Shown one piece after another: positions 2,681-40,500 of a DNA stretch of 64,000 bases. Source of the DNA: Serinibacter arcticus. GTDB taxonomy: Bacteria; Actinomycetota; Actinomycetes; Actinomycetales; Beutenbergiaceae. The stretch covers positions 3,038,001-3,102,000 of the forward strand of contig NZ_PYHR01000002.1 of assembly GCF_003121705.1 (NCBI RefSeq), read 5' to 3'. Within the stretch, counting starts at the first letter, position 1. Every line of letters starts with the position of its first letter. Position numbers and translations under genes: made by a program. Below the pieces are notes generated by a model, which saw only the letters and a list, made by a program, of their open reading frames with translations, searched no databases and was not told the DNA's origin.

Positions 2681-4946
2681 GCGGGTGGGGTCTGCGGAGG
2701 GTGCGGACGCCGGCGACCCGCGGCTGCCCGGTCTCGCCGTCCTGCTCGACGACGACGCGACCACGTGGTGGCTGCGCGGGCACGGCGTGCCCGGCCGCGC
2801 GCGCGTGCGCTACCTCCGGCACAAGCCGGGCACGTCCGTGCAGGCCTGGGTCGAGATCGTCCGGCCGGACGGCGGCACCGAGCACGCGATCGCCCAGGCC
2901 ACGGCGCCCGACGACGCCGCGAAGCTGCGCAAGCTCGTCCGTTCGGCGCAGGCGCGTGGGACGTGGGCGGTCGCGGCGGGCTCGGTCGTCGTCGCGGGTC
3001 ACGCCGCCGACCGCCCGCTGCCGGCGCTCGCACCGGTGCTCGCCGCGGGCGGGACGACGCTGCGCCACAACCCCGGCCGCCGCTGGGTCGGGCGCTCCGC
3101 GGACGGCGACCTGGTCAAGGTCGGGCGGCCGGGGCGCGAGGCGGTCGCGGTGGCCGCCGCGCACGCGCTGGCCGAGCACGGCGTGGCCACGCCGCCGGTG
3201 CTCGAGCACGGCGGCGGGCTGCTGCGGCTGGGCTGGTGGTCCGGTCGGACGCTCGAGCACGAGCTGACCGCGGCGCTCGACGGCGGAGCCCTGGCCGGCG
3301 ACCGGCTCGCCGCCGTCGGGGCGCTGGTCGCGTCGTTGCACGCCGTGCGGCCGGTGGGCGACGACGACGGGGGCGTCGCCTCGCACGGCGACCTCTCGCC
3401 CGACCAGGTCCTCGTCCGCGACGACGGACGTCTCGCGCTGCTCGACCTCGACCGGTTCACGACGGCGCCGCCCGAGGCGGACCTGGGGAGCTTCCTCGGG
3501 GACCTGCTCGCGCGGGCGTGCTCGCGATGGGTCGAGCACGGTGCCGCCGACCCGCTCGACGAGGTCGCCCGGCGGGCGTGGGGCGTGCTCGCCCCCGTCC
3601 TGGTGGGCTACCGGGAGGCGGGCGGGACGGTCCTCGACGAGGCCGTGATCGATGCCGGCGTGGCGTCCCTGCGCTCGCGTGCGGACGAACCGTGGCGACG
3701 GCGCGAGCCCCGGGCCGCGCACGCCGTCGCGGCGAGGCACCGGCTGGTGCGCACGGCCGCGGACGTGCTCGGCCGCCACCCCGCGGCGCGCGCGACCGCC
3801 GCGCCGTCGCTCCGCCACCCACCCGAGGCGCCACGACCGCAGGGCTGGACCGACGCCGTCGTGCTCGCCGGGGTCCGGCACGAGGTGCTGCGCGGCTGGC
3901 CGCGCCCCGACGGCGTCGTGCTGCTCGAGCTCGGCGCGGCCGACGAGGTGCGCCGCGGCGCCGAGCTGCACCCCGACGAGGCATCGGCCCGGGCCCGGGC
4001 CGCCCGGTCACCCGGGGCCGAGATCGTGGCCACCGGGACGCCGGGCGGCGGCCGACTCCTGATGCACCCGATGGGGAGCGACGCGCGGCTGCCCGCACTC
4101 GCCGACCGCCTCGCGCGCGGTGAGCGGATCGTCGTGCACCGCCCCGGGCGGCGTGCCGTGCTGCGCGGCCCCGGGGCCGCCGACCCGTACGTCAAGGTGA
4201 CCCGGCGCGGGCGGGCGAGCGACGCCGTCGCGCGCCATCGCGTCCTCGCGGCGCATCTCGCGGGGACGGCGCGGGCCGCCGAGATCCGGGAGGCGGGCGG
4301 CGACGCCGTCGTGCTCGCGCCGCTCCCGGGAGCGTCGCTGCTGCGGCTCGGGGGCGACGCGGGGGTGCCGGTCGGGACGCTCGCCGCGGCGTGGGGCGGC
4401 GTCGGGAGGATGCTCCGGGCGCTGCGCCGGGCGCCGACCACGGGCGCCGTCGCCGGGCTGCCGGTGCACGACGCGGAGGCCGAGCGCCGGACCGCCCTGG
4501 CGTGGGTCGGACCGGCGCTGGAGCGGGGGCTGCTGCCGGCGGTCGACCGCCCGGAGGTGGAGGAGGCGCTCGCGGAGCTGACGCAGGGGACGCCCGCGGC
4601 CGAGGGGCTGCTGCACCGCGACCTGCACGACCAGCAGGTGCTCGTGGCCGACGACGGCGCCCTCGGGCTGCTCGACCTCGACACCGCCGCGCGGGGCGAG
4701 AGCGTGCTGGACCTGGCGAACCTGCTGGCGCACCTCGGGCTGCGGGAGCGTCAGGGGCTGCTCACGCCGGAGCGGCGCGAGGCCGCGGAGGCGGCGCTGC
4801 TCGACGCGCTCGACCCTGACGAGGTCGAGCTCGCGCGCACGGCGGCCTACGTCCGGTCGGCGCGGCTCCGGCTGGCGGGCGTCTACGCGCTGCGCCCGCG
4901 CTGGCGCGGTGTGGCGGAGGACCTGCTGAGGGAGGCTCTGCGCTGA
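2670..4946 (+). CDS. Tandem aminoglycoside-phosphotransferase-like kinase (two domains)
   Basis: A 758-residue protein containing two APH/choline-kinase-like catalytic cores. The first has HGDLSPDQVLV near residue 237 followed by LALLDLDRF; the second has HRDLHDQQVLV near residue 650 followed by LGLLDLDTA. These are the HxDxxxxx catalytic loop and the DxD metal site; the usual loop Asn is replaced by Gln in both (DQ in place of xN). Single-domain family members phosphorylate small-molecule or sugar hydroxyls. A tandem version beside a glycosyltransferase and an ABC exporter suggests phosphorylation of a sugar or polyol in that pathway (inference). GTG 2670 overlaps the ABC stop; GTG 2655 is an alternative. 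It runs convergently into the next gene with a 20-bp gap. Confidence 0.8.
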   Translation: MSAERVGSAEGADAGDPRLPGLAVLLDDDATTWWLRGHGVPGRARVRYLRHKPGTSVQAWVEIVRPDGGTEHAIAQATAPDDAAKLRKLVRSAQARGTWAVAAGSVVVAGHAADRPLPALAPVLAAGGTTLRHNPGRRWVGRSADGDLVKVGRPGREAVAVAAAHALAEHGVATPPVLEHGGGLLRLGWWSGRTLEHELTAALDGGALAGDRLAAVGALVASLHAVRPVGDDDGGVASHGDLSPDQVLVRDDGRLALLDLDRFTTAPPEADLGSFLGDLLARACSRWVEHGAADPLDEVARRAWGVLAPVLVGYREAGGTVLDEAVIDAGVASLRSRADEPWRRREPRAAHAVAARHRLVRTAADVLGRHPAARATAAPSLRHPPEAPRPQGWTDAVVLAGVRHEVLRGWPRPDGVVLLELGAADEVRRGAELHPDEASARARAARSPGAEIVATGTPGGGRLLMHPMGSDARLPALADRLARGERIVVHRPGRRAVLRGPGAADPYVKVTRRGRASDAVARHRVLAAHLAGTARAAEIREAGGDAVVLAPLPGASLLRLGGDAGVPVGTLAAAWGGVGRMLRALRRAPTTGAVAGLPVHDAEAERRTALAWVGPALERGLLPAVDRPEVEEALAELTQGTPAAEGLLHRDLHDQQVLVADDGALGLLDLDTAARGESVLDLANLLAHLGLRERQGLLTPERREAAEAALLDALDPDEVELARTAAYVRSARLRLAGVYALRPRWRGVAEDLLREALR

Positions 4947-6022: not shown

Positions 6023-6171
6023 CCCTCGCTGTCTGCGGACGACCCTCGCTCACTGCGGACAGAACTCCGCACCCGGAACGGTCGACCGCATCGCCGCAGG
6101 TCACAGCCCCGGCTCGCGACGGCGGCCGAATCCGTCCGCAGTGAGCGAGGGCGGTCCGCAGTGAGCGAGGC
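6023..6171. repeat. TIR hairpin element, copy 1
   Basis: Lies in the 323-bp divergent gap 5909-6231. Inner arms CCCTCGCTCACTGCGGAC (6043-6060) and GTCCGCAGTGAGCGAGGG (6134-6151) are a perfect 18-bp inverted repeat around a 73-bp centre. A second, imperfect arm sits outside on each side (6023-6040 and 6154-6171), giving a 20-bp tandem of arms per side. A second copy lies at 15954-16083 with a similar centre. No reading frame is supported. Possibly a MITE-like or REP-like element or a structured RNA; function unknown. Confidence 0.75.
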
Positions 6172-6218
6172 GAGCCGCGGCGCCCACCGTCGGTCCCCCG
6201 CGCCGCCCCGACCCGACC

Positions 6219-6224
6219 TAGTCT
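6219..6224 (+). promoter_or_regulatory. Leaderless -10 element (TAGTCT)
   Basis: TAGTCT is followed by 7 nt and then GTG 6232. The spacing places transcription start at or next to the start codon, and no Shine-Dalgarno is present. The same TAnnnT-N6/7-GTG layout recurs at several genes in this window. Confidence 0.55.
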
Positions 6225-6231
6225 CGAGTGC

Positions 6232-7464
6232 GTGACCGATCCGAACGGAACCACCCAGCACTGGACCGAGGGCTTCCCGCACCTGACGGAGCGCGCCGCC
6301 GCCCTCCTGCGCATCGACCCGGCCGACGTCGCCCGGCACAGCCAGGTCGTGCCCGGCGCCTTCCACGTCTGGACCCCGGGACGCGGCGGACCGCACGCGA
6401 TCCTCGGCTTCGACGGCACCGCCCTCGTGCGCGAGTCCACCTTCACGCAGGCGCAGCTCCACGCGGCGTACACGGCCGGGCAGCGCAACGACGAGGCCGT
6501 CGCGCGCGAGCCGATCATGCACGCGGGCTCCGCCGTCGCGATCCTCACCGACGTCCTGGGAGGCCGCGAGCGGCGCACGATCTCCGCCGTCGGACCGACC
6601 GAGGACGAGCTCGCCGCCCTCGGGCACGGACCGTTCGCCCTGACCACGCCCGACGAGATCGCCACCCGGCTGCGGGGCCGGGGCGAGGGGTCCTGGACGA
6701 TCGTCGGGATCGATCGCGCCGCCGGGCCCGGCCACTGGCTGATCGCGCTGCACCAGGGCGACCAGATCCACACGTTCGACCCGGTCGCGAACGCGCGCGG
6801 CACCTGGCCGCCGGAGACCGGCGCGATCCGGTGGTGGGCCAACGGCCGGCCGGAGGCTCCGCCGTCGCGCGTCGTCGTGGACGCCCGGCACGGCAGCGGC
6901 CGCCGGATCTGGGTTGAGACCACGCCCGCGCTGGCCCCGACGGCGCAGCAGCTCGTCAGCTACTACGCCGGCGTCGACGGGCTCCGGAACGGGCTCGGTG
7001 TCTGGAACGGCTTCTGGTGGGCGGTCGCGCACGAGGATGGCCAGGACCTGCGCATCGCCGTCACGGACCTGACGAAGCCCGGGATCGCCGCGCTCACCTG
7101 GGACGCCGACCCGGCGTTCACGCTCCTCCAGGCCGAGCACGCCGTCGCGCACCGCTTCGGCGTCGATCGGGCGCCGGTCCGGTTCGTCAACGGCGTGCGG
7201 CTGCGCGAGGCGGCGATCGGCGCGGCCGAGACCCACCTCGTGCGGCGCACCCCCGCGCCCGGCACCGACGAGTCCGGCTGGCTCGTCACCACCGCGCCCG
7301 ACGACGACGGCGCGGACGCTCCAGTCGTCCCCGCCCACGAGCTGTGGCGGCGCGCCCCGCACCTGGTGCCGCTGCTGGCGCTGCCGGTCGGGTTCCACGT
7401 GGTCGCCGGCCCCGACGAGGGGGGCACCGTCGCCGTGCGCGTCGTGGAGCGACCCGCGACCTGA
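6232..7464 (+). CDS. Uncharacterised cytosolic protein, 410 aa
   Basis: No family recognised with confidence. It has no signal peptide or membrane segment, is rich in Trp, His and Ala, and contains no cysteine at all. The stretch GHWLIALHQGDQIHTFDPV (about residues 172-190) is reminiscent of the His-Asp half of papain-like (Tox-PL) folds, but the catalytic Cys is missing, so an active protease or deamidase is not supported. A later segment, GVWNGFWWAVAHEDGQDL, may begin a second domain. GTG 6232 is chosen because a -10 box lies 7 nt upstream (leaderless). It stands alone between a divergent wall protein and a GAF-ANTAR gene. An immunity or polymorphic-toxin-associated role is possible but unproven. 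Confidence 0.7.
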   Translation: MTDPNGTTQHWTEGFPHLTERAAALLRIDPADVARHSQVVPGAFHVWTPGRGGPHAILGFDGTALVRESTFTQAQLHAAYTAGQRNDEAVAREPIMHAGSAVAILTDVLGGRERRTISAVGPTEDELAALGHGPFALTTPDEIATRLRGRGEGSWTIVGIDRAAGPGHWLIALHQGDQIHTFDPVANARGTWPPETGAIRWWANGRPEAPPSRVVVDARHGSGRRIWVETTPALAPTAQQLVSYYAGVDGLRNGLGVWNGFWWAVAHEDGQDLRIAVTDLTKPGIAALTWDADPAFTLLQAEHAVAHRFGVDRAPVRFVNGVRLREAAIGAAETHLVRRTPAPGTDESGWLVTTAPDDDGADAPVVPAHELWRRAPHLVPLLALPVGFHVVAGPDEGGTVAVRVVERPAT

Positions 7465-7480
7465 CCCGGTCGGTCCCGGT

Positions 7481-7510
7481 TTGGCGTTCTCTCGTGACCT
7501 GGGGCAAAAT
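7481..7510 (+). promoter_or_regulatory. Promoter of first GAF-ANTAR gene
   Basis: TTGGCG (7481-7486) and CAAAAT (7505-7510) are separated by 18 bp. The -10 lies within a small dyad, GGCAA-AA-TTGCC (7503-7514), which could be a regulator site. The predicted 5' leader is about 75 nt. Confidence 0.45.
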
Positions 7511-7589
7511 TGCCTGGCACTTCCGCGCTCGTGACCAGTGGCGTCGGCTGTCCCTCGGCACACTGTCTGCCTCGGCACGGAAGAACGCC

Positions 7590-8333
7590 ATGTCCCGGCC
7601 CGAAGACCTCACCTCCGACCCGATGGCCCAGCTCGCGGCCTCGTTGGACGGGCTCCTCACGCTCGAGGAGACCGTCGCGGCCGTCGCGCAGACGGCCCTC
7701 GAGCTGATCCCCGGCTGCTACTCGGCCAGCATCACCGTGCGCCGCGCGTCCGGTCGGCTGGAGTCCTGCGCCGCGACGTCCGACGTCGCCAGGAACGCCG
7801 ACGACCTCCAGCACCCGTTCTCCGAGGGGCCCTGCTACGTGCTGCCGCTGGAGCAGGGCATCGTCGAGTCGGGCGACGTCGCCCGCGACGAGCGCTGGAC
7901 CTCCTGGGGGCCCAAGGTCCACGAGGCCGAGGGGGTCTCCTCCGTCCTCAGCGTCCGGCTGCTCAGCGCCCGCGGGGTCCAGGGCGCGCTCAACCTCTAC
8001 GCCCGTGAGGTCGACGCCTTCGGACGCGACGCCGTCGAGCTCGCCGCGACCCTGGGCATCCACGCCGCCGTCGCCGTGCGCGCCGCGCTGCTCGCCCAGG
8101 ACCTCGCCGAGGCGGTCCCGAGCTCGCGGCTCGTCGGCCAGGCCCAGGGCCTGCTGATGGAGCGGTTCTCGATGGATCCCGACACGGCGTTCGCGGTGCT
8201 GCGGCGGCTGTCCCAGACGAGCAACGTCAAGGTCGTCGAGATCGCGCGACGGATGGTCGACGAGCGGGCGGTCCGCGACGCGACGGTGCGCGACGCCGTC
8301 GCGCAGGCCGAGTCCGAGGTGCGCGAGGGCTGA
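7590..8333 (+). CDS. GAF-ANTAR RNA-binding antiterminator
   Basis: A 247-residue cytosolic regulator with an N-terminal GAF domain (about residues 20-165; SITVRRASGRLES, EGPCYVLPLEQG, VLSVRLLSARGVQGALNLYA) and a C-terminal ANTAR three-helix domain (about 175-230; SSRLVGQAQGLLMERFSMD, AFAVLRRLSQTSNVKVVEIA). ANTAR domains bind paired hexaloop hairpins in nascent mRNA and prevent termination; GAF domains sense small ligands. ATG 7590 is used; longer open frame upstream lacks coding character. A paralogue of the same design lies at 44022-44723. Monocistronic behind its own promoter and convergent with the VIT gene. Target transcripts are not identified. Confidence 0.88.
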   Translation: MSRPEDLTSDPMAQLAASLDGLLTLEETVAAVAQTALELIPGCYSASITVRRASGRLESCAATSDVARNADDLQHPFSEGPCYVLPLEQGIVESGDVARDERWTSWGPKVHEAEGVSSVLSVRLLSARGVQGALNLYAREVDAFGRDAVELAATLGIHAAVAVRAALLAQDLAEAVPSSRLVGQAQGLLMERFSMDPDTAFAVLRRLSQTSNVKVVEIARRMVDERAVRDATVRDAVAQAESEVREG

Positions 8334-8392
8334 GGACCGGTCGGCCGGGGTCGGCCCGGGTTCGGCGCGGGTTCGGCGCGGCCCGGCTCAGC

Positions 8393-9055
8393 TCAGGCGA
8401 TCGCGGTTCCGAACAGCGTCCCGACGGCGAAGGTCAGTCCCAGGGCGAGCCCGCCTCCCAGCACCACGCGCACGACGGCGCGGCGCACCGGGGCCTGGCC
8501 CAGCCGCGCGCCGAGGCCGCCGGTGAGCGCGAGCGCGAGCAGGGTGGCGGCGACGGTGGCCGGCACGCGCGCGGCGCCCGGCACCGCGACGACGGTGAGG
8601 AACGGCAGCAGCGCGCCGGCGACGAACGCCAGCGCCGAGGCCAGCGCGGCGTGCCAGGGGTTGGCGATCTCGTCGTCGTCCACCGGGGCGCCGCTCGCGA
8701 GCTGCGAGTCGCGCGCGGAGGAGACCGAGACGTACTCGCCGAGCGCCATCGAGAGCGCCCCGCCCACGAGCGCGGCGAGGCCGGCCATCACGACGACCGG
8801 GAGCGACGACGTCGCGCCCGCCACCCCGACGACGATCGCGGCGACGGAGACGATGCCGTCGTTCGCGCCGAGGACGCCCGCGCGCAGCCAGTTGAGGTGA
8901 GCGGCGGTGGGGGCGGAGGCGAGCGCGGGCGTGGTCGCGGAACCCTGGCCGTCGGGGGTGCCGGTGACGACCCGGGTGAGGCCGTGGAGTGCAGGGGACG
9001 TCGTGGTCATGCCCCGATGGAACGCCCATGCGAGAAACCTGTCCAGCAAGGACAT
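8393..9055 (-). CDS. VIT1/CCC1 family Fe/Mn membrane transporter
   Basis: A 220-residue integral membrane protein with five hydrophobic segments. The family signature LNWLRAGVLGANDGIVSVAA and GGALSMALGEYVSVSSARDS (first two helices) is intact, followed by three C-terminal helices. VIT1/CCC1 proteins exchange protons for Fe2+ or Mn2+; in bacteria they are thought to export or sequester metal. This is the short form without a ferritin domain. The ATG at 9055 has a Shine-Dalgarno (GAGGA) at good spacing; an internal ATG at 9010 (MTTTSPALHG) is an alternative with a weaker site. Convergent with the GAF-ANTAR gene. The 60-bp gap holds GGGTTCGGCGC direct repeats. Confidence 0.88.
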   Translation of the reverse strand: MSLLDRFLAWAFHRGMTTTSPALHGLTRVVTGTPDGQGSATTPALASAPTAAHLNWLRAGVLGANDGIVSVAAIVVGVAGATSSLPVVVMAGLAALVGGALSMALGEYVSVSSARDSQLASGAPVDDDEIANPWHAALASALAFVAGALLPFLTVVAVPGAARVPATVAATLLALALTGGLGARLGQAPVRRAVVRVVLGGGLALGLTFAVGTLFGTAIA

Positions 9056-9137
9056 CGTGTCCTCATCCCAGGTCAGGGGAGGCTCGCGAATGGCAGCCTC
9101 GCCTCATGTCAGGCCAGGCTTCTCTACGGTGGGGAGG

Positions 9138-10399
9138 GTGACGACGCCACCCGCGCCCCCGCCCGCCCCCGCCACGGCTCCCGCCGTTCGTGCGACGCCG
9201 ACCGGCCTGACCGGCCGCAGCCTCGCCCCGACCTGGCGCGCGGCGTGATGCTCCTGCTCATCGCCGCCGCCAACGCGCCCTGGTACCTGTGGGCGTCGCA
9301 GACGCGGGACCTCTCCCAGCACCCGGTCGACGCCTCGAGCCTCGACCGGGTGGTGCAGACCGTCATGCTCGTCGCCGTCGACGCGCGCTCGTACCCGATG
9401 TTCGCGATGCTCTTCGGCTACGGCATCTGGCAGCTCTACAGCCGCCAGGCCGCCGCCGGCGTGGAGCGCACGGAGGCGCGGGGCCTGCTGCGCCGTCGCC
9501 ACTGGTGGATGCTCGCGATCGGCGCGGTGCACGCCGCGCTGCTGTGGGCCGGCGACGTCGTGGGCGCCTACGGGCTCGCCGGGCTCGTGCTCGTGGCGCT
9601 GTTCATCGACCGGGCCGACCGGGTGCTGCGCGTGTGGGTGATCGTGCTGACCAGCCTCATCGCCGTCGCGGGCGTCTTCTCGCTCATCGGGGCGTTCGCG
9701 GTGCAGGCCAGCGGGGTCGACGCGGGCGCGACCGCGGCCGGCTTCGACATCGACGCCGGGGCGGGGGAGGCGAGCTACCCGGCGTCGGTCCTCGTCCGCT
9801 CGACCATGTGGCTCATCGCGACGCCGGCGCAGGCGTTCCTCTCGGTGACGATCCCGATCGCGATCCTCGGCGGCATCCTCGCGGCGCGGCACCGCCTGCT
9901 GGAGGACCCCGCGCGGCACCGCCGGCTGCTGCGGCGGCTCGCCGTCGTCGGGATCGGGGTCGGCTGGCTGGGCGGCGCCGTCGTCGCGGCCCAGAACCTC
10001 GGCCTGCTGGGCCTGTCGCCCGAGCTCGACTGGGGCTTCATCTACCTGCAGTCCACCACCGGCCTGTTCTGCGGCGTCGGGTACGTCGCCCTCTTCGGGC
10101 TGATCGCCGCCCGGCTCAGCGGCTCGACGGCGGAGCCCCGTCCCGTCGGGCGCGTCACCTGGGCGCTCGCGGCCGTGGGCAAGCGGTCGCTGACGAGCTA
10201 TCTCGCGCAGTCCGTGGTGATGGCGCCGCTGCTCGCCGCGTGGGGCCTGGGCCTCGGCGCGGATCTGGGCTCGTCGACGGTGCTGCTGGTCGCCGTCGGG
10301 ACCTGGCTGCTCACCGTGGCACTGGCCTGCTGGCTCGAGGCGACGGGACGGCGCGGGCCGGCGGAGTGGGCGCTGCGACGGCTGGCCTACCGGCGGTAA
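9138..10399 (+). CDS. DUF418 family membrane protein, probable 1-nt frameshift near start
   Basis: Polytopic inner-membrane protein (about 420 residues once repaired) of the DUF418/YeiB group, with roughly nine hydrophobic segments and the C-terminal signature GKRSLTSYLAQSVVMAPLL. Function is unknown; transport or acyl transfer has been proposed for relatives. The family N-terminus RSLAP-DLARGVMLLLIAAA is split between two frames: GTG 9138 encodes an Ala/Pro-rich start ending TGRSLAP, while DLARGVMLLL continues in the -1 frame. One base is apparently missing around 9226-9231 (CCCCGACC for CCCCGGACC). Without repair, translation could begin only at GTG 9245 or ATG 9248. A leaderless -10 (TACGGT 9125-9130, 7 nt before GTG) supports the 9138 start. 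Confidence 0.8.
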
Positions 10400-10463
10400 G
10401 TACCCCCTGGTAGGGCGGGAAGTACCCCCTGGTGGGGCGGGAACTACCCCCTCGTGGGGTGAG
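10398..10463 (+). repeat. 22-bp-period tandem array 1 (3 units)
   Basis: Three units of exactly 22 bp (10398-10419, 10420-10441, 10442-10463), based on AAGTACCCCCTGGTGGGGCG. The first unit includes the TAA of the DUF418 gene. Each unit holds a short dyad (CCCCCTGGTGGGG). It fills the gap between two convergent genes and may act as a bidirectional terminator or protein-binding boundary (inference). Confidence 0.8.
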
Positions 10464-10468
10464 GTGGG

Positions 10469-11866
10469 TCAGCGGCGGGGGCGGGTGTACGTCGCGCCGT
10501 CCCACCAGTGCGCCACGACCGAGAGCGCGACCTCCTCGCCCGCCGCGATGCGGCCGAGCGCCAGGCGTCGCAGGCGGACCAGCGAGATCAGCATCATCGA
10601 CGTCGAGAACAGCGAGATCGCGACCAGCGAGAGCAGCGCCCACCGGTAGTCGGCGAGCACGGGCGTGCCGTGGCGGGACAGCTGGTCGAGCACGATGCCG
10701 AACACCACCACCCCGACCATCGCCCCGGCGAAACCGCCCATGTTGACGAGGCCGGTCGCCGTCGAGATCCGCTCGCGGGGGTTGTAGTCGCGGGCGAGGT
10801 GGAAGCCGACCTGGGACGCGGGCCCGCCGACCGCCAGCATCAGGAACGCGACGGTGACGGCGACGGCGGGCGGCCCGCCCGGCCACCACGCGAGCATGCC
10901 CAGCGCCAGCATGCCGGCCAGGGACGCGCCGATCGCCAGCGGCATCCGCCAGCCGGGGCGGCGTCCGGCGAGCGGGCCGATGACGAGGTTGAACCCCAAC
11001 GTGCCCAGCACGAGCAGGGACAGCTGGGCGGCGGCGCGGTCACCGCTCCAACCCAGCCCCTCCGTCAGGTACGGGAAGCCCCACACCATCGCGATCACCG
11101 TGCCGCCCGCCATCGTCGCCTGGTGCGTCCAGAAGCCCACCTGCGTGCCCCGGCCGAGCTCGGTGCCGCGCCACGACGCGCGGACGTCGCCCAGCACGCC
11201 GGCCCAGCCGCGCGGCGTCGGCGCCTCGGCCTCGCGGTCGGCGACCTCGGCCAGGTGCGCGCGGGTGCTGCGGAACGGGGCGGTGACGGCGGGGCGCAGC
11301 AGCAGGACGGCGTAGATCAGGGACGTCGCACCGGTCACGAGGAACGTGCGCGTCCACCCGAACTCCCCGAGCGCCCACACCAGCGGCACGGTCGCGGCGA
11401 GGTTGCCCGCCATGCCGAACAGGCCCGAGAACATCGTCAGGACCGCGTAGCGGCTGCGCGGGAACCACTCCGCGGCCAGCCGCAGGCACGAGAGGTAGAC
11501 GGCGGAGTCGCCCAGCCCGAGCAGCGCGCGGGCGGCGAGGGCGAGCGGGTAGGAGCCCGCGAACGCGAAGGCGACCTGCGCCGTTCCCATGATCAGCGTG
11601 GCCAGCAGCAGCACCCGGCGCGGGCCGATGCGGTCGATCGCGAGGCCGGCGGGCACCTGCATCGCTGCGTAGACGGCCAGCTGCACCATCACGAACGTGC
11701 CGAGCTGGGCGGAGGAGATGTCGAGGCGGGCGACGGCGTCAGGCCCGGCCACGCCGAGCGAGGAGCGGTGCAGGACGGCGAGGAGGTAGACCACGCACCC
11801 GGTCACCCAGACGACCCACGGGTTGCGGCGAGCCGCTCGGTCGAGGCGGGGCAGGAGGGACGTCAC
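10469..11866 (-). CDS. MFS transporter
   Basis: A 465-residue major facilitator superfamily carrier with about 12 hydrophobic helices. The loop 2-3 motif appears as GLAIDRIGPRRVLLLA, and GLGDSAVYLSCLRLAAEWFP is a helix 4-5 signature like that of nitrate/nitrite and anion:cation-type permeases. The central loop (about residues 200-230) is charged. The substrate cannot be assigned. The start GTG 11866 has GACAAT 8 nt upstream, suggesting transcription starts at or very close to the start codon. It ends 5 bp from the 22-bp tandem array shared with the convergent DUF418 gene. Confidence 0.85.
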   Translation of the reverse strand: MTSLLPRLDRAARRNPWVVWVTGCVVYLLAVLHRSSLGVAGPDAVARLDISSAQLGTFVMVQLAVYAAMQVPAGLAIDRIGPRRVLLLATLIMGTAQVAFAFAGSYPLALAARALLGLGDSAVYLSCLRLAAEWFPRSRYAVLTMFSGLFGMAGNLAATVPLVWALGEFGWTRTFLVTGATSLIYAVLLLRPAVTAPFRSTRAHLAEVADREAEAPTPRGWAGVLGDVRASWRGTELGRGTQVGFWTHQATMAGGTVIAMVWGFPYLTEGLGWSGDRAAAQLSLLVLGTLGFNLVIGPLAGRRPGWRMPLAIGASLAGMLALGMLAWWPGGPPAVAVTVAFLMLAVGGPASQVGFHLARDYNPRERISTATGLVNMGGFAGAMVGVVVFGIVLDQLSRHGTPVLADYRWALLSLVAISLFSTSMMLISLVRLRRLALGRIAAGEEVALSVVAHWWDGATYTRPRR

Positions 11867-11892
11867 GGAAGGCCATTGTCCTCCCCCGGACG

Positions 11893-11935
11893 CCCGACCG
11901 CCCCGCCACGCGCGAGGCGTGACGGGGCGGTCGGG
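11893..11935 (-). terminator. Rho-independent-type hairpin after 11968 gene
   Basis: CCCGACCGCCCCG (11893-11905) pairs perfectly with CGGGGCGGTCGGG (11923-11935), and an inner CACGC/GCGTG extends the stem. It lies downstream of the gene ending at 11968 on the minus strand. No U tract, as is common in actinobacteria. Confidence 0.75.
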
Positions 11936-11967
11936 GTGGTGCGGTCGGACGGGGTGCGGTCAGGCGA

Positions 11968-13554
11968 TCAGTTCCACACGACCGTCTTGGGCTCCACCGA
12001 GAAGTCCACGGTGGGGGAGCCGAGGCTCGTCCCGCCGCCGAACCCGAAGATCGTGCCGCGGCCGGTCGTGCCGTTCTGCGTGACGTCGGCGGCCACGTCG
12101 ACGCTGCCGATGTAGTCGCCCTTGACGAAGAACGGGTTGCTGTAGTCCGGACGCGGGTTGAGGCCGCCGAGCTTGAGGCCCGTGTCGCCGGGGAGCGTGC
12201 GGGTGATCGTGCCGTCCACGATGGTCGAACCGTCGTTGAGCGTCGCCTGGAGCTCGAGGCCGCAGCCGGCCGCGAGCGTCGTCGAGGCGATGCACTCGTC
12301 CACGGCGGCCTTGACCGTGTCGTGGAAGATCTGCTGACCCTCGGCGTTCAGGGCGATCTCGACCCCCGAGAACGACGCGCTCTTGAAGGATTCGGTGATG
12401 GACTCGATCACCGGGCCGGTGAGCTCGTAGAGCGGTGTGCTCGTGGCGATCTGGTACGTGCCCAGGAAGGCGTCGTAGCTGCCCGGTGTCACCGTCACAC
12501 CGTTGACCGTGACGTCGAGACCCTTGTAGGAGTCCGCGATGTAGACGCTGCCACCGGTCGAGCCGACCGTGTAGCCGTCCTCCTCGTCGCCGTACACGGA
12601 GAAGGTGCTGGAGACCGGGGTGTCGCCGACGTTGAACGTGGCGTCGACGTCCCCGCCGTAGGTCATGTCGCCCGTCGGCGGGGTGACCTCGATGGCGGTG
12701 ATCGGCGAGATCGCGTTCGAGGCCGCGAGGACCTCGTCCGTCAGCAGCGACTTGTCGCCCGACGAGTAGTCGTCCACCAGGGCGAGCGCTGCCGCGGAGT
12801 CGCCGTCGGCCAGCGCGGTGAGGTAGGCCTCGACGGCGCCGTCGGGCGTGGAGGTCACGGCGTCGTCGGTCGGCGACGGCGAGTCGGTCTCGGTGGTGCC
12901 GCCACCGCCGTCGGTCGTCGGGTCGTCGGCGACGTCGTCGCCACCGCCGCGGGTGACGAGGAAGATCACCAGGGCGATGATCGCGATCACCGCGACCGCG
13001 CCGCCGATGATGAGGGCGAGCGGGGCCTTCTTCTTGGGGCCGCCGGGACCGCCAGGACCACCGGGAGCGCCGTAGCCGGGCTGACCGGGCTGGCCAGGGC
13101 CGCCGGGCTGACCCGGCTGGCCCCCGTAGGGCTGCTGGCCGTAGCCGGGCTGGCCGTAGCCGGGCTGACCGTAGCCGGGCTGACCGCCCGGCTGGCCGCC
13201 GTAGGGCTGCTGGCCGTAGCCCGGCTGGGCGCCGTAGCCGCCGGACTGGCCCTGGTCGCCGCCGGGCTGGGACTGGCCCCACTGCTGGGTGGGCTGGCCG
13301 CTCTGCTCGCCCCACTGCTGACCGGGCTGGCCGTGCTGACCGGGCTGCTCGCCGTAGCCGGGCTGGCCGGTCGGCTGGCCGCCGTACGGCTGACCGCCGT
13401 AGGAGGGCTGCTCGCCGCCGTAGGCGGGCTGGCCGCCCTGCTGCGGGTAGCCCTGCGAGCCGGACGGTGCACCGTACGGGTCCTGCGGAGGGGTGGGTCC
13501 ACCCTGCCCGTTGCTCGGGTTCTGGGGGAGCGGCGGCGTGCCGTCGTTGCTCAT
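11968..13554 (-). CDS. Membrane-anchored surface protein with G/P/Q/Y-rich N-terminus
   Basis: A 528-residue protein in three parts. Residues 1-175 are cytoplasmic low-complexity sequence built from [12 protein letters not shown]-like units; residues about 180-205 are one membrane helix preceded by GPKKKAP (positive-inside); residues about 215-528 are an Asp/Ser/Thr-rich linker followed by an extracellular domain. The external part has a DUF4878/NTF2-like beginning ([20 protein letters not shown]), then beta-rich sequence with two Cys. Such N-terminal tails occur in many actinobacterial membrane proteins and may drive clustering. Function unknown. A strong Shine-Dalgarno (CAGGAG, 6 nt spacing) supports ATG 13554. 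Transcribed alone, with hairpin terminators on both sides. Confidence 0.85.
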
Positions 13555-13640
13555 GTGGTTCTCCTGGTCGGCGCGAGTCCCCTGAGGCTAGCGGTTTCGG
13601 CCCCCGCACAAGGATGTGGGTTGCAGGGTGTCAGCGCGTG

Positions 13641-13667
13641 ACCCTCCCCGGCGCTGCCGGGGAGGGT
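13641..13667 (-). terminator. Hairpin terminator after FtsX-type permease
   Basis: ACCCTCCCCGGC (13641-13652), loop GCT, GCCGGGGAGGGT (13656-13667): a perfect 12-bp stem downstream of the permease stop at 13704 on the minus strand. Confidence 0.8.
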
Positions 13668-13703
13668 CGGGCGGAGGATCGCGGGCGGGCGTCCCGCGCC
13701 GGA

Positions 13704-15047
13704 TCAGGCCTCCTGGGCCACCATCCGGCGGGCGACCGGCGTGCTCGCGGCCGCGCCGAGCAGCACCAGCGCGCTCGCGCCGAGGATGCTCAGGACGTAC
13801 TGCACGAGCACGACGGGCTGCGCGAACGACCCGACCCCGATGAGCGGCACGATGATCACGAGCATCGCGACGGCGGCCGTGCCCACCGCGGCCAGCAGGG
13901 GGACGAGGGTCTCGCGGAACCGGGCGGCGTCGAGCGTCCGGGTCTCGGTGCCGGCCAGCACGAGGTTGCGGTACGCCTGACGCTGGTCGATGACCCGGCC
14001 GGCCTGCATGACACCGGTCGAGACGCCCGCGAGCAGCCCGGCGATCGCCAGCGTGAGCATGCCGCCGGTGGCGATGTCCTGCGAGATCAGCGCGTCGTCG
14101 GGCGAACCGCTGCCCGTCGCCCCGAACAGGGCCGCGACGGCGGTGATGCCGGCGATGAAGGTGGCCAGCGCGACCCCGCCGACGCTGCGCCAGGCCGTCT
14201 TGGGGTCGTCGACGATGCGGCGGCCGGCGAGCAGGGTCGCGGGGGTGCGGGCGCGGGCGACGGCGATGCGCCCGATGAGGCCGAGCACGAACGGGCCGAG
14301 CAGGTTGAGCGTCGCCATGCCCGCGGCGACCAGACCCATGAGCACGAAGATCACGACGACGCCGCCGGCCGAGCCGAGGGCGGCGTTGGCCGCCGTGACG
14401 GCACCGACCGCCACGACGAGCGAGACGAGCCGGAACCAGTGCAGGGCCGGCGGCGTGGTGCGAGCCGCGACGCCGAGCGGGGTGATCGCCACCCGGCCGA
14501 GGCTCGAGATCGAGGAGAACAGGGCGATCGCGAGGACGCCGCCGACCGCGGCGAGGACGCCGGGGACGCCGACCCACAGTTCCGCGAGGTCGAACGGCCG
14601 ACCCTGGAACCGCAGCTGCGCGACGGCGGGGAGCAGCGCCGCGTAGCCCGCGACGCCGATGACGGCGCCGAGCACGGCCTGCACCCCGGCGTCGAGCACC
14701 GTGAGCGTCGCGACCTGGCCGTTGGTGGCGCCGGCCAGACGCAGCGCGGCGAGCCGCGCGTCCCGACGGGCGACGGCGAGCCGGGCGGCCGCCCCGCCCA
14801 GCGTCGCGAGCGGGACCAGCAGCAGCATCGTGGCGAACGCCGCGAGGAAGATGTAGAGCGACTCGTCGTCGGAGGCCCCCACCGCGAGGGACCGCTGGAC
14901 GAACGCGGTCAGGCCGCCGACGACGACGAGCGAGATCGCCGTCGTGACCGCGAAGGCGATCACCGCGAGCACGCTCGTCAGGCCGGCGGGGTCGGAGGAG
15001 CCGCTGCTGCGACGACGCAGCAGGAGCCACAGGCGCAGGGTGGTCAT
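13704..15047 (-). CDS. FtsX-like ABC transporter permease
   Basis: A 447-residue integral membrane protein with about eight to ten helices and two FtsX/MacB-like halves: GGAAARLAVARRDARLAALR (about residues 82-101) sits after the second helix, and AGRRIVDDPKTAWRSVGGVA marks the second half. The family forms mechanotransmitting transporters for lipoproteins, peptides or antibiotics rather than classic channels. The ATG at 15047 overlaps the TGA of the ATPase gene by 4 nt (ATGA), so the two subunits are co-translated. No solute-binding partner is adjacent. Substrate unknown; self-resistance or envelope stress is the usual context. Confidence 0.88.
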   Translation of the reverse strand: MTTLRLWLLLRRRSSGSSDPAGLTSVLAVIAFAVTTAISLVVVGGLTAFVQRSLAVGASDDESLYIFLAAFATMLLLVPLATLGGAAARLAVARRDARLAALRLAGATNGQVATLTVLDAGVQAVLGAVIGVAGYAALLPAVAQLRFQGRPFDLAELWVGVPGVLAAVGGVLAIALFSSISSLGRVAITPLGVAARTTPPALHWFRLVSLVVAVGAVTAANAALGSAGGVVVIFVLMGLVAAGMATLNLLGPFVLGLIGRIAVARARTPATLLAGRRIVDDPKTAWRSVGGVALATFIAGITAVAALFGATGSGSPDDALISQDIATGGMLTLAIAGLLAGVSTGVMQAGRVIDQRQAYRNLVLAGTETRTLDAARFRETLVPLLAAVGTAAVAMLVIIVPLIGVGSFAQPVVLVQYVLSILGASALVLLGAAASTPVARRMVAQEA

Positions 15048-15847
15048 CGGGTCACCGCCTGGAACGAGGTGGGGACGGCGTGCGCCTGGGGCGGCTCGTG
15101 CGCCTGGGGCGCCTCGGGGGCGCCGGGCTGCGCCGTCGTCCCGCCGTCGCCCGCCGTCTGGCTCAGCTCGCGCACGATGCGTCCGTCGCGCATCTCCACG
15201 ATCCGCCGGCACCAGCGGGCGACCTCGAGGTCGTGCGTGACGACGACGAGGGACGCGCCCTGGGCGCGCGCCGCCGTCGTGAGCGCCTTCATGACCTCCC
15301 AGCCGGTGGTGCGGTCGAGGGCGCCGGTGGGCTCGTCGGCGAAGATGACGCCGGGGCTGCCGACCAGGGCGCGGGCGATCGCGACGCGCTGCGCCTGACC
15401 GCCGGAGAGCTCGCCAGGGCGGCGGGACTCCATGCCGCCCAGGCCGAGGTGGCTCAGCCACTGCCGGGCGCGAGCCGTCGCCTCGGGGCGAGCCACGCCG
15501 TCGAGCAGCAGCGGCAGCGCGGCGTTCTCGTCCGCGGGGAGCTCGGGCAGGAGCTGGCCGGACTGGAACACGAAGCCGAAGTCCTGGCGGCGCAGCGCGG
15601 TGCGCTCCTTGTCGCTCATCGAGCCGAGCGAGCGGCCGCCCCAGAGGGTGTCGCCCGCGGTCGGGGCGAGGACGCCGGCGAGCAGGTGGAGGAGGGTCGT
15701 CTTGCCGGAGCCGGACGGGCCCATGATCGCGACCGACTCACCCGTTCGGATCGTGAGGTCGACACCGAGCAGCGCGTGCGTCGCGCTGGTGGCGGTGCCG
15801 TAGGTCTTGGTGAGCGCGAGGGCCTCGAGGGAGCGGTTGCTGGTCAT
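15044..15847 (-). CDS. ABC transporter ATP-binding protein (LolD/MacB type)
   Basis: A 267-residue ATPase partner of the FtsX-like permease. Visible motifs are Walker A MGPSGSGKTT, Q-loop VFQSGQLLPEL, signature LSGGQAQRVAIARAL, Walker B VIFADEPTGALD and switch His VVVTHD. EPTGALD is typical of the LolD/MacB/FtsE class. The last 45 residues are a Pro/Ala/Gln-rich tail (APEAPQAHEPPQAHA) beyond the usual length. ATG 15847 gives MTSNRSLEALALTKTYG; an ATG slightly upstream is an alternative. The divergent upstream region holds the second TIR hairpin element and the large palindrome of the neighbouring membrane-protein gene. Confidence 0.92.
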   Translation of the reverse strand: MTSNRSLEALALTKTYGTATSATHALLGVDLTIRTGESVAIMGPSGSGKTTLLHLLAGVLAPTAGDTLWGGRSLGSMSDKERTALRRQDFGFVFQSGQLLPELPADENAALPLLLDGVARPEATARARQWLSHLGLGGMESRRPGELSGGQAQRVAIARALVGSPGVIFADEPTGALDRTTGWEVMKALTTAARAQGASLVVVTHDLEVARWCRRIVEMRDGRIVRELSQTAGDGGTTAQPGAPEAPQAHEPPQAHAVPTSFQAVTR

Positions 15848-15953
15848 GCCTCCGAGCATGCGTCGCGACGGCGGGCGCTCGCGTCCGGCCCCGGGCGTCA
15901 CCTCCGGGCGGGGTGTGCGCCCGCGGTCGGGGGCCGGCGTCATCCCGTGGGCG

Positions 15954-16083
15954 GCCTCGCTCCCGGCGGACGGCCCTCGCTCTCTGCGGACAGAACGCCG
16001 CCGCGCGGGGCGGCCACGGCGTCGTCGCAGGTCAGGGGCACGGCCTACCGACGGTGCCGGGATCCGTCCGCAGAGAGCGAGGG
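15954..16083. repeat. TIR hairpin element, copy 2
   Basis: Lies in the 354-bp divergent gap 15848-16201. Arms CCCTCGCTCTCTGCGGAC (15974-15991) and GTCCGCAGAGAGCGAGGG (16066-16083) are perfectly complementary around a 74-bp centre. A degenerate extra arm lies at 15954-15971. Compared with copy 1, the one differing arm base changes on both sides (A/T to T/A), which preserves pairing. The centre shares AGAAC, CGCAGGTCA and a terminal ATCC with copy 1. Confidence 0.75.
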
Positions 16084-31500: not shown

Positions 31501-34500
31501 TCACGTACACGCCCGAGCCGGGCTTCTCGGGTCAGGACACGTTCACCTACCAGGTGTGCGACAGCTCGACGCCGGACCCGGTGTGCGACTCCGCGACGGT
31601 GACGGTCACGATCGTCAGCGTGGTCGACGCCCCGGACGCCACGGAGACGACGCCGCAGAACACGCCGGTCACCACCAGCCCGGTCGACCTCGCGACGACC
31701 TCGCCGAACGGCGCCCCGCTGGACCCGGCGTCGGTGACGGTCCCGACCGGTCCGGCCAACGGCACGGTCGACATCGACCCGCTCACGGGTGAGATCACCT
31801 ACACGCCGGACCCGAACTTCTCCGGCACGGACACCTACACCTACTCGATCTGCGACACCTCGACCCCGACCCCGGTGTGCGACACCGGCGTCGTGACGGT
31901 CACGGTGGAGCCGAACGCGGTCACGGCCGAGCCGGACGCCGCCACCACGCCGGCGGGCACGCCCGTCGACATCGCCGTCGTCGACAACGACACGGTGCTG
32001 CCGAACGGCGCCCCGCTGGACCCGGCGTCCGTGGCCGTCACCGCCCCGCCGGCCGGCGGCACGGTGACGATCGTGGACGGTGTGATCACCTACCTGCCCA
32101 ACCCGGGCTTCTCGGGCACCGACACCTTCACCTACCAGGTGTGCGACACCTCGACCCCGACGCCCGTGTGCGACACGGCCGTCGTCACGGTCGCGGTGGA
32201 GGGCGCGGTGACCGCCGAGGACGACGACGCGACCACGGCGCAGAACACCCCGGTGACGATCGACGTCCCCGCGAACGACAGCTCGGCCGGCGCCCCCCTC
32301 GACCTGGGCTCGGTGACGATCGTCGACGCCCCGGCGAACGGCACGGTCGACATCGACCCGGTCACGGGTGAGATCACCTACACGCCGGCGCTCAACTTCT
32401 CCGGTACGGACACCTTCACCTATTCCATCTGCGACACCTCCGACCCGACGCCGCTGTGCGACACGGCGACGGTCACCGTGACGGTGCCCGCGAACACGGT
32501 CGACGCCGTCGACGACTCGGCGACGACCGGCCCGGTCACGCCGGTCGACATCGACCTGCTGGACAACGACACGGTGTCGCCGACGGGCGCGCCGCTGGAC
32601 CCGGCCTCGGTCGAGCTCGTGACGGCCCCGGCCAACGGCACCCTCGTGATCGACCCGGCCACGGGCGTCGCGACCTACACGCCGCTCCCCGGCTTCTCCG
32701 GCACCGACTCGTTCGTCTACTCCGTCTGCGACCTCTCGGTGCCCACGCCGGTCTGCGACACCGCCACCGTCACCATCACGGTGGACAACATCATCCAGGT
32801 GAACGACGACACCGCGACCGTCCCGCAGAACACCGCGACCGACATCCCGGTGCTCGCCAACGACACCACCACCGGCGTCGGGTTCGACCCCGCGACGGTC
32901 GCGATCGGCACCGGCCCGGCCAACGGCACGGTCACGATCGACCCGGCGACCGGGATCATCACGTACACCCCGAACGCCAACTACTCGGGTCCGGACACGT
33001 TCACCTACACGGTCTGCGACACGAGCCCGACGCCGCTGTGCGACGAGGCGACGGTCACGGTGACCGTCTCCCCGAACGTGGTGACGGCGGACGACGAGAC
33101 CGCCACGACGCCGCAGAACACGCCCGTCACCACGGAGGTGCTCGACGGCGACACCGTGCTGCCGAACGGCGCGCCGCTCGACCCGGCGTCGGTCACGGTC
33201 ACGACGCCCGCTGCGAACGGGACGACCTCGGTCGACCCGGCCACGGGCGCCATCACCTACACCCCGAACGCGGGCTTCTCGGGCACGGACACCTACAGCT
33301 ACACGGTGTGCGACGTCTCGGTCCCGACGCCGGTGTGCGACACGGCGACCGTCACGGTCACCGTCCCGGCGAACGTCGTCACGGCGAACCCGGACACGGC
33401 GCTCACGACGCCGGTCACCCCGGTCACGACGACGGTGCTCGACAACGACACGGTCTCCCCGACGGGTGCTCCGCTGGACCCGGCCTCGGTCGCGGTCACG
33501 ACGCCCCCGGCTGGCGGCACGACGGTGGTCAACCCGGACGGGTCGATCACGTACACGCCGAACCCCGGCTTCGCCGGGACGGACACCTACACCTACACGG
33601 TGTGCGACACCTCCAACCCGACCCCGGTGTGCGACACGACCGTGGTGACGGTGACGGTGACCAACGCCGTCGTCGCGAACGACGACGCCGACTCGACGCC
33701 GCAGAACACCCCGGTGGACGTGGCGGTGCTCGGCAACGACACCGTCAGCACCGGGGGACCGGCGCTGGACCCGGCCTCGATCACCACGACCGCTCCGGCC
33801 AACGGCACGGTCACGGTCGACGATGACGGCCTCATCACCTACACCCCGAACACGAACTTCTCAGGCACGGAGACCTTCACCTACACGGTCTGCGACCTCT
33901 CGACGCCGACCCCGACCTGCGACACGGCCACGGTGACGATCACGGTCGAGCCCAACGAGCTGACCGTGGCCGACGATGCCGCGACGACCCCGCCGGCGAC
34001 CCCGGTCGAGATCGACGTGCTCGAGAACGACTCCGCCACGGGCGCGCCGCTGGACGCGACGTCGGTGACGATCACGACGCAGCCGGCCAACGGCACGGTC
34101 GACGTGGACCCGGTCTCGGGCCTGGTCACCTACACGCCGAACGACGGGTTCGCGGGGGTGGACACCTTCGTCTACTCCGTCTGCGACATCTCGACCCCGA
34201 CGCCGGTCTGCCTCACGGCGACCGTCACGGTCACGGTCCTGAACGAGGTCGACGCGGTGGACGACACGGCGACGACCGAGCAGAACACCCCGGTCTCGGT
34301 CCCGGTGCTGGGCAACGACACCCAGCTCGACGGCGGTCCGGGTCTCGATCCGGCCTCGGTCACCGTGACCACCCCGCCGGCGAACGGCAGCACGCTGGTC
34401 GACCCGACCACGGGGGCCGTCACGTACACGCCGAACCCGGGCTTCTCGGGCGAGGACACGTTCACCTACCAGGTGTGCGACCTCTCGACGCCGACCCCGG

Positions 34501-37500: not shown

Positions 37501-40500
37501 ACACCGACACCACGACGCCGGGCACGCCGGTCACCACGCCGGTCCTCGGCAACGACACGGTCACCCCGGGCGGAGCTCCGCTCGACCCGGAGAGCGTGAC
37601 GATCACGACGTCGCCGACCAAGGGCACGGTGACGGTCGACCCCGAGACGGGCGACATCACCTACACGCCGACGCCGGGCACCTCGGGGACGGACACGTAC
37701 ACCTACCAGGTGTGCGACACCTCGACCCCGGAGCCGGTCTGCGCGACGGCGACGGTCACGATCGAGGTGGCGAACACGGTCACCGCGATCGACGACTCGG
37801 TCACGACGCCGCAGAACACCGCGGTGCCGATCGCGGTCACGGCGAACGACACCGTCGCCACCGGCGGGGCTCCGCTGGACCCGGCCTCGGTCGCGGTCAC
37901 CGCGCCGCCGGCCAACGGGACGGTGACGATCGACCCGGCCACCGGAGTCATCACCTACACGCCGGACCTGAACTTCTCAGGCACGGACACCTTCAGCTAC
38001 CAGGTGTGCGACACCTCGACGCCGACGCCGGTCTGCGACACCGCCGTCGTCACGGTCACGGTGCCGCCGAACACGGTGACGGCGCTGCCGGACGCGTCCG
38101 ACACGACGCCGGGCGTCCCGGTCACGACCCCGGTCCTGGGCAACGACACGATCACCCCGGGCGGGGCCCCGCTGGACCCGGCCTCGGTCACGGTCACCGC
38201 GGGGCCGACCAAGGGCACGGTGACGGTCGACCCGGAGACGGGCGACATCACGTACACGCCGAACCCGGGCACCTCGGGCACGGACACGTACACCTACCAG
38301 GTCTGCGACACCTCGGTGCCGACGCCGGTGTGCTCGACGGCGGTCGTCACGATCGACGTGATCACCACGGTGACCGCGGTGGACGACGCCGCGACCACGC
38401 CGCAGAACACCCCGGTCGCCGTCGACGTGCTCGACAACGACACGGTCGCCGACGGCGGGGCCCCGCTGGACCCGGCCTCGGTGGAGGTGACGGTCGCCCC
38501 GGCGAACGGCACCACCGCCGTCGACCCGGTCACCGGTTTCATCACGTACACGCCGGCGGAGAACTTCTCCGGCACGGACGTCTTCACCTACCAGGTGTGC
38601 GACACCTCGAGCCCGGACCCGGTCTGCGCGACGGCGACGGTGACGATCACGGTGCCGCCGAACACGGTCACGGCCGTGCCGGACGAGGCCTCGACCACCC
38701 CGGCCACCCCGGTCACGACCCCGGTGCTGGACAACGACACGGTCACCCCGGGTGGCGCTCCGCTCGACCCGGCGACCGTGACGATCACGACGCCGCCGAC
38801 GAAGGGCACGGTGACGGTCGACCCCGGGACGGGCGACATCACCTACACCCCGAACCCGGGCACGTCGGGCGAGGACAGCTACAGCTACACCGTCTGCGAC
38901 ACCTCGGTGCCGACGCCGGTCTGCTCGACTGCGACCGTCACCGTCCAGGTGATCAGCACGGTCACCGCCGTGGACGACGAGGCCACCACGCCGCAGAACA
39001 CCCCGGTGGGCATCACGGTCCTGGGCAACGACACCGTCTCCGCCGGTGGCGCCCCGCTCGACCCGGCCTCGGTCGCGGTCACGACGGCTCCGGCCAACGG
39101 GACGGTGACGGTCGACCCGGCCACCGGAGTCATCACCTACACGCCGAACCTGAACTTCTCAGGCACGGACACCTTCAGCTACCAGGTGTGCGACACCTCG
39201 ACCCCGACGCCGGTCTGCGACACGGCCGTCGTCACGGTCACGGTGCCGGCGAACACGGTGACGGCGCTGCCGGACGCGTCCGACACGACGCCGGGCGTCC
39301 CGGTCACGACCCCGGTCCTGGGCAACGACACGATCACCCCGGGTGGAGCTCCGCTGGACCCGGCCACGGTCGCGGTCACCGCGGGGCCGACCAAGGGCAC
39401 GGTGACGGTCGACCCGGTCACGGGCGACATCACCTACACGCCGAACCCGGGCACGTCGGGCACGGACACCTTCACCTACCAGGTGTGCGACACCTCGGTC
39501 CCGACGCCGGTGTGCGCGAGCACCACGGTGACGGTCGAGGTCGTCAGCACGGTGACCGCGGTGGACGACGTCGCGACCACGCCGCAGAACACCCCCGTGG
39601 TGATCCCGGTCGTGGGGAACGACTCGGTCGCCGACGGCGGCGCTCCGCTGAACCCGGCCTCGGTGTCGGTGACGACGCCGCCGGCCGACGGGACGGTCAC
39701 GATCGACCCGGTCACGGGCGACGTCACCTACACGCCGGGGGCGAACTTCTCCGGCGAGGACACGTTCAGCTACCAGGTGTGCGACACCTCGACGCCGACG
39801 CCCGTGTGCGACACGGCCACGGTCACGGTGACCGTGCCGCCGAACACGCTGACTCTGACGCCGGACGAGGCCGCGACCACGCCGGGCACCCCGGTGGCGA
39901 TCCCGGTCCTGACCAACGACACCGTCACCCCGGGTGGAGCGCCGCTCGACCCGAGCTCGGTCGAGGTCACGACCCCGCCGACCAAGGGCACCGTCGCGGT
40001 CGACCCGGTCACCGGAGTCGTCACCTACACGCCGACGCCCGGCACCTCGGGGACGGACACGTTCACGTACACCGTCTGCGACACCTCGGTGCCGACCCCC
40101 GTGTGCGCGAGCACCACGGTCACGGTCACGGTGCCCAGCACGGTGACCGCGGTCGACGACGTCGCCTCGGTGCCGCAGAACGGCAGCGTGCCGATCCCGG
40201 TGATCGGCAACGACACCGTCAGCCTCGGCGGCGCCCCGCTGGACCCGACCTCGGTGACGATCACGGCCGAGCCGGCCAACGGGACGGTCACGGTCGACCC
40301 GGTCACCGGCGTCGTGACCTACACCCCGACCCCGGGCTTCTCGGGTGAGGACGTCTTCAGCTACCAGGTGTGCGACACCTCGACGCCGGAGCCCGTCTGC
40401 GACATCGCGACCGTCACGGTCACGGTGGGTCAGAACGCCGTCTCGGCCAACCCGGACTCCGCCACGACGCCCCCGGGCACCGCGGTCGAGATCCCGGTGG

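Follow-up and report, generated by a model that had tools for sequence, protein, structure and literature searches.

The dispersed intergenic palindromes of Serinibacter arcticus described here are probably sites of action of a protein in which an AbiEi-like DNA-binding part is joined to a nuclease of the Vsr/EDxHD type. Two of these elements lie in the window, the stretch of 64,000 nucleotides that was analyzed, and the gene for the protein lies elsewhere in the same genome. Sequence comparison by itself establishes the repeat family and how its elements are built. It also establishes that all 13 close genes of this kind have inverted repeats next to them, that paralogues within a genome have different arms, and that the arms of dispersed elements follow the gene found in the same genome. 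Beyond this, we infer arm binding, action at the core and spread by break repair. We found no description of such a pairing of gene and element in the open-access literature. Genomes other than that of S. arcticus (G000) are referred to by number where they have to be told apart.

Both elements in the window follow one plan, in which inverted arms of about 20 bp, often doubled at a 20-bp step, surround a core like CATCGYCGCAGGTCAGRG (Table 1). The inner arms described in the sequence-only reading that singled them out are exact, and the arm coordinates agree with its centres of 73 bp in element 1 and 74 bp in element 2. It had also noticed a single base that differs between the arms of the two elements and is changed on both sides with pairing kept; this base is arm position 10. 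Extra arms at a 20-bp step are indeed present, on both sides of element 1 and, with two mismatches, only on the left side of element 2. The placement of both elements in divergent promoter gaps looks right when the sequence is read by eye. For the 13 full copies in the genome, a crude gene caller placed 8 in tandem gaps, 3 in convergent ones and 1 in a divergent one and left 1 unassigned, a result to which we give no weight because the caller mis-called copy 2. Nine arm matches with up to three mismatches were found in the window, compared with a mean of 1.78 and a maximum of 5 in 100 shuffles.

Table 1. Parts of the two elements, in positions of the window
Feature	Sequence	Position	Strand	Remark
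Element 1 outer left arm	CCCTCGCTGTCTGCGGAC	6023..6040	+	20-bp step from inner arm
Element 1 inner left arm	CCCTCGCTCACTGCGGAC	6043..6060	+	
Element 1 central core	CATCGCCGCAGGTCACAG	6089..6106	+	core type also in elements of other genera
Element 1 inner right arm	CCCTCGCTCACTGCGGAC	6134..6151	-	
Element 1 outer right arm		6154..6171	-	
Element 2 degenerate outer left arm		15954..15971	+	2 mismatches
Element 2 inner left arm	CCCTCGCTCTCTGCGGAC	15974..15991	+	
Element 2 central core	CGTCGTCGCAGGTCAGGG	16020..16037	+	
Element 2 inner right arm	CCCTCGCTCTCTGCGGAC	16066..16083	-	

The two elements do not stand alone, and the suggestion that they belong to a repeat family is borne out by 13 full copies and one solo arm in the 4.06-Mb genome. 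A 16-base arm pattern matched the whole genome 40 times with at most one mismatch, compared with 2 matches for the reversed control. Read by eye, a further arm stands 20 bp outside on the left in 9 of the 13 copies and on the right in 7, some of these being degenerate. A directional central core close to GCATCGCCGCAGGTCAGGG is common to 12 copies; the thirteenth, e1805, which was reversed for the alignment, has a more divergent core. A covariance model of the copies found matches at an E-value of 0.01 in 16 of 99 genomes including its own, several of the 16 resting on one hit near the limit. In these relatives the core and the layout are kept and the arms are again doubled at a step of about 20 bp, with a different arm sequence, and several arm families coexist in some genomes.

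The alternative in the sequence-only reading, a regulatory RNA under structural selection, takes the elements to be transcribed hairpins with compensatory arm changes. Their predicted folds are strong (z of -4.3 to -9.7), but good folding of inverted repeats follows by construction. The double change at position 10 occurs in only 1 of the 13 full copies; the pair there is U-A in the other 12 and A-U in this one, and no copy breaks it. At position 9, seven copies have C-G, two have G-C and four do not pair, and two copies do not pair at position 11; the two compensated and four broken changes at position 9 thus tell in part against structural selection and leave the repeat family standing. When the arm helix was imposed on the 13 copies (273 pair cells) and compared with 500 shuffles, pairing reached 91.6% of the cells, a level attained by 98 shuffles, and changes on both sides occurred in 3 cells, attained by 89. 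The covariation score, reached by 33 of the 500, was the sole measure near the tail, and the other four of the five measures were ordinary. Arms are constant as a sequence within a genome, and between genomes it is the arms that are replaced and the unpaired centre that is kept. No Rfam family matched at the elements in the window, and the core is displaced from the symmetry axis in helical steps, as described below. With covariation this weak and no Rfam match at the window's elements, we set the RNA hairpin aside as very improbable.

The gene that we associate with the family lies outside the window at G000:C2:2101627-2102610, between two direct element copies. These near-identical elements, at 2101383 and 2102609, flank this single gene, and its stop codon falls within the outer arm of the second. 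The gene is related to genes found between or beside elements in other genomes. Together with 12 close homologues in five related genomes, it encodes an AbiEi-antitoxin-like part fused to a nuclease resembling Vsr and homing endonucleases. Pfam gave matches to AbiEi_4 and to DUF559/MTES_1575 (PF04480, PF18741), most of them below the curated cut-offs and all PF18741 matches under theirs, and the PADLOC AbiEi models matched all five proteins tested. For the Miniimonas arenae member, structure prediction (pLDDT 91.5) gave an AbiEi-like N-terminal fold, with 6y8q as a Foldseek match (E 4.8e-6). Its C-terminal part matched the EDxHD endonuclease I-Bth0305I (3r3p; E 0.13, probability 0.99, TM 0.73 by target). 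The relationship of the nuclease part is clearer by sequence profile than by fold (3hrl, E 2.1e-8; 3r3p, E 5.3e-5), and on the profile matches, with a Foldseek E-value of only 0.13, we assign it a predicted Vsr-like catalytic fold. E181, D208, E218, D220, H225 and D234 are invariant in 23 proteins; two of them, D220 and H225, stand opposite N and A when aligned with 3r3p, so the catalytic match to that enzyme is not clean. VIA-align gave Z values of 7.7 or less and added no family to which we give weight. An in-frame TGA is present in two of the 13 close genes.

Profile A3 was built from five of the 13 close genes, which had been noticed because they are located between elements. Among 297 genomes of the order, it retrieved 13 proteins above 300 bits and the next at 213 bits, the 300-bit line having been set once this gap had been seen. 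The 13 genes sit in six genomes, all of which have element hits. Every one of the 13 carries an inverted repeat scoring at least 13 on at least one flank, and 21 of the 26 flanks reach this score compared with 3.3% of 150 random windows. Among the eight genes outside the building set of A3, all have a flanking repeat (11 of 16 flanks). An element is present on both sides of 10 of the 13 genes, two of these sides scoring only 10 and 11. Where both flanks are marked, the distances from gene to element are too short for a second gene such as an AbiEii/DUF1814 toxin. The exact CAGGTCA core occurs in 16 of the 21 gene-flanking inverted repeats; it is absent on the only repeat-bearing flank of G001c and of G002b. 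Action at the core should be viewed with caution, because the exact core is missing from five gene flanks.

Arms and genes are matched in finer detail. The three genes of G006 carry three different arm families, all of which are present at dispersed elements. Those of G007 also have different arms each, two of the three families being present at dispersed elements and the arms of G007b at none of the 75 compared. Among these 75 (one G002 site counted twice, as L136 and L546), 64 dispersed arms best match a gene-flanking arm of their own genome with ties shared, compared with 14.5 expected. The G000 part of this comparison is circular, its copies having been collected by their arms; without G000, 54 of 63 match their own genome. 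Ten of the 75 lack a best match in their own genome, of which 8 fit the sister species and the remaining 2 match a family of arms for which no gene is known. Similarity of arms also goes with similarity of proteins (Mantel Spearman 0.37, p 0.005) for arms that were not hand-phased, and we use this value rather than the 0.56 obtained with hand-phased arms.

This matching bears on the possibility that an unrelated enzyme moves the elements, as a family of the MITE-like or REP-like kind, and that the AbiEi-nuclease gene is a passenger or lies at a hot spot of insertion. Such a family would be expected to consist of short palindromes that are scattered through intergenic DNA and differ in presence and absence, as these do, and one element pair in G007 (L156) encloses a gene that, read by eye, is unrelated. 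However, paralogues within a genome have different arms that the dispersed arms track. A REP-associated transposase, for which the sequence-only reading had suggested looking, did not turn up among seven proteins scanned from between or beside elements; all were of the AbiEi and DUF559/MTES_1575 type. We consider movement by an unrelated enzyme improbable. The L156 pair combines two arm families around the unrelated gene, and we take the two elements to be chance neighbors.

REP sequences and their RAYT genes form 'REPtrons', in which intergenic palindromes are dispersed, the enzyme gene is flanked by copies and the repeat is genome-specific. RAYTs are HUH tyrosine transposases. The gene and elements described here resemble a REP/RAYT system in all three of these traits but not in the enzyme. 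The flanked gene encodes an AbiEi and Vsr-like nuclease fusion, with AbiEi/DUF559 matches in the seven scanned proteins and none of the HUH (Y1) type, and the elements differ further in their doubled arms and common inner core. On the kind of gene found in these seven proteins, we reject a REP/RAYT system.

The main rival is regulation, in which the elements are operators of an autoregulating AbiEi-like protein, the dispersed copies are a regulon or idle, and the nuclease serves, for example, phage defence. AbiEi and Rv2827c are described as binding paired 23-bp inverted repeats, separated by 3 or 13 bp, in their own promoters (PMC7319586). The N-terminal part of our protein resembles these type IV antitoxins (6y8q, Rv2827c) both by fold and by the PADLOC models, which is in favor of an operator. 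Unlike in those antitoxins, a nuclease domain follows, and the repeats, usually with a core, are found downstream of genes as well as upstream and are dispersed. In addition, sister species differ in their element-bearing sites, and a shared inner core would be superfluous for an operator. Overall, we judge operator regulation unlikely, though less so than movement by an unrelated enzyme.

The position of the core within the elements points to a protein on DNA. Its offset from the symmetry axis falls into four classes about 10 bp apart that hold 97 of 102 elements, although most of these loci come from model R1, in which spacing is built in, and one site was entered twice (L168 and L516). There are 54 elements at +2 to +5, 34 at -8 to -5, 6 at +23 or +24 and 3 at -19 to -17, with 5 elsewhere. 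With shuffled cores the hits averaged 5.5, did not exceed 16 and were widely spread. The offsets of the 12 gene-side elements (L507-L517) are 5, -7, 3, 3, 3, 5, -18, 3, 4, 0, -7 and -7. R1 had already hit three of these (L509, the left one of L512, and L516); of the nine that it missed, eight lie inside the offset classes (5, 3, 3, 3, 5, 4, -18, -7). The ninth, L514 at offset 0, is a weak match with a score of 11, away from the gene's own repeat. Spacing by whole turns would be required of a protein complex on DNA.

We propose that the AbiEi part would bind along one face of the helix, on arms that are inverted and often doubled. Bound in this way, paired protomers would place their two tethered nuclease domains on the intervening DNA, where these may come together at the central core and cleave or nick it. 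If the break were then repaired with another copy as template, elements and gene units would spread, and the arms of one genome would stay alike. Such an AbiEi-nuclease model would account for the variable arms, the recurring core, the doubled arms and the helical phasing. I-Bth0305I is described as dimerizing on a target of nearly 60 bp (PMC3943268). The nuclease domain studied here is related to this EDxHD enzyme by profile and, with a weak E-value, by fold, but its DNA-binding part is AbiEi-like and D220 and H225 differ as noted above. Unlike the gene of an EDxHD homing endonuclease, our gene leaves its target intact, the cores being whole on both sides in G000, G006a, G006b, G006c and G007a; as the units retain cores on both sides, they would themselves be cut. 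The gene with its elements does not form a usual AbiE operon and, as far as seen here, does not represent intron homing. MTES_1575 has been named a Vsr-family restriction endonuclease, and our protein shares PF04480 and PF18741 matches with DUF559/REase_MTES_1575; in contrast, the known one is part of giant HEPN-helicase proteins, and dispersed palindromes are not mentioned in the available part of that source (PMC3710099).

The core is also found without arms, in chromosomes and in actinophages. Matches with at most one mismatch occur in 154 of the 297 genomes, and the exact core in at least 120 stretches of viral contigs compared with 8 for the reversed pattern. Gordonia phage Daredevil carries 12 copies in both orientations in one noncoding end, and a phiJoe primer listed in the primer table of PMC5311408 contains the core. 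G167 has 17 core hits, yet no A3 match, close or distant, at 1e-10. The nuclease system may have adopted the core as an already existing, older signal.

As far as can be read from sequence, the plan of a gene with dispersed arms is repeated in distant homologues. A scan of named genomes found a core-bearing element near only 6 of 73 loci with a homologue, which speaks against the proposed role, namely two in Miniimonas, three in Actinomyces oris and one in a Bifidobacteriaceae MAG. Of 24 other distant homologues, 11 carry an inverted repeat with a score of 13 or higher on one side or both (16 of 48 flanks), and in Actinomyces several genes are bracketed by inverted repeats whose inner core is different. 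The gene-flanking arm of Actinomyces israelii occurs 37 times in its genome (control 0), with 15 distinct elements that have common arms and a partly conserved centre. Likewise, the gene-flanking arm of G171 occurs 21 times (control 0), and three A. oris genomes gave 8, 21 and 15 arm hits (control 0 in each). Two A. oris sites, both fully read, contain the core CGCAGGTCA.

Differences between related genomes give indirect evidence of movement. Eight G001 loci are covered by G002 stretches, and of the seven that could be resolved (L135 is outside these), the element is absent from G002 at five (L112, L113, L132, L133, L134) and present in both genomes at L114 and L131. At two A. oris sites, strains differ by whole intergenic blocks. 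No target-site duplication was readable between G001 and G002 or at the two A. oris sites, and no insertion site could be read to the base, because the intergenic DNA is too divergent or the whole block differs. The gene unit lies beside a sugar-kinase gene in G000, G001 and G007, which represent two genera, and is reversed in one of them. No gene unit was found within 1.5 kb of the kinase in G002, G004, G006, G009 and G011, and G010 gave no kinase match.

In its widest form, which we put forward tentatively and with less confidence than the assignment of the elements to the AbiEi-nuclease protein, the sequence comparisons may reflect a new class of selfish or domesticated systems in bacteria. 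AbiEi-EDxHD fusions in such systems would recognize variable arms and act at a common core. Gene units and solo elements would spread by break repair, and as the binding specificity of the fusions changes, arms would turn over across the genome, with the core swapped in some lineages. A single protein and one DNA of about 150 bp would be enough for a test. If true, REP-like palindromes would arise via an enzyme unrelated to the REP transposases, and there would be a natural set of proteins, each paired with its DNA sites, to show bound arms and central core evolving separately. The findings would then explain a class of intergenic palindromes in Actinobacteria and give a role to genes that are usually labelled merely as AbiEi-domain or DUF559 proteins.

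Around the same CAGGTCA-type core as the main elements, the window's genome (G000) holds a second arm family, of the CAGCGGCACCCCGAACCG type, for which no matching nuclease gene was found. Three further cores stand in this genome without strong arms. Within the window, weak false matches of the core search came from a recurring stretch, CGACGCCGCAGAACAC, whose recurrences are perhaps repeats inside a large protein. An Rfam search of the 64-kb window at the gathering threshold returned nothing besides one tRNA gene.

A search of viral contigs for the core showed that its armless form is common across the noncoding DNA of actinophages, some of which carry several copies, in both orientations, within a single genome. 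In the related genome G001, ~20-bp repeats form tandem arrays adjoining or past the elements at four loci (L112, L132, L133 and L134, around 3100-3800).

Coordinates of cores, second-family elements and other features
Feature	Locus or source	Position	Remark
Second-arm-family element (CAGCGGCACCCCGAACCG type)	L275	G000:C2:3400936	
Second-arm-family element (CAGCGGCACCCCGAACCG type)	L279	G000:C2:2516533	
Core without strong arms	L276	G000:C2:441418	
Core without strong arms	L277	G000:C2:1213487	
Core without strong arms	L278	G000:C2:1866460	
Armless core(s)	L475, Gordonia phage Daredevil	29554-30364	
Armless core	L476, Mycobacterium phage Sheen	7377-7418	
Recurring stretch CGACGCCGCAGAACAC	Window	31567-31733, 33027-33192, 37782-37837	Weak false matches, core search
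tRNA gene	Window	59965-60037	Rfam match at gathering threshold

The unit of AbiEi-nuclease fusion gene and flanking elements adjoins a sugar-kinase gene at one position shared by three genomes of two genera (L064, L128, L512), and in the related genome G007 the nuclease gene of this unit lies in reversed orientation. Its recurrence beside the sugar-kinase gene, with this reversal, may reflect a hot spot or an inversion between the arms.
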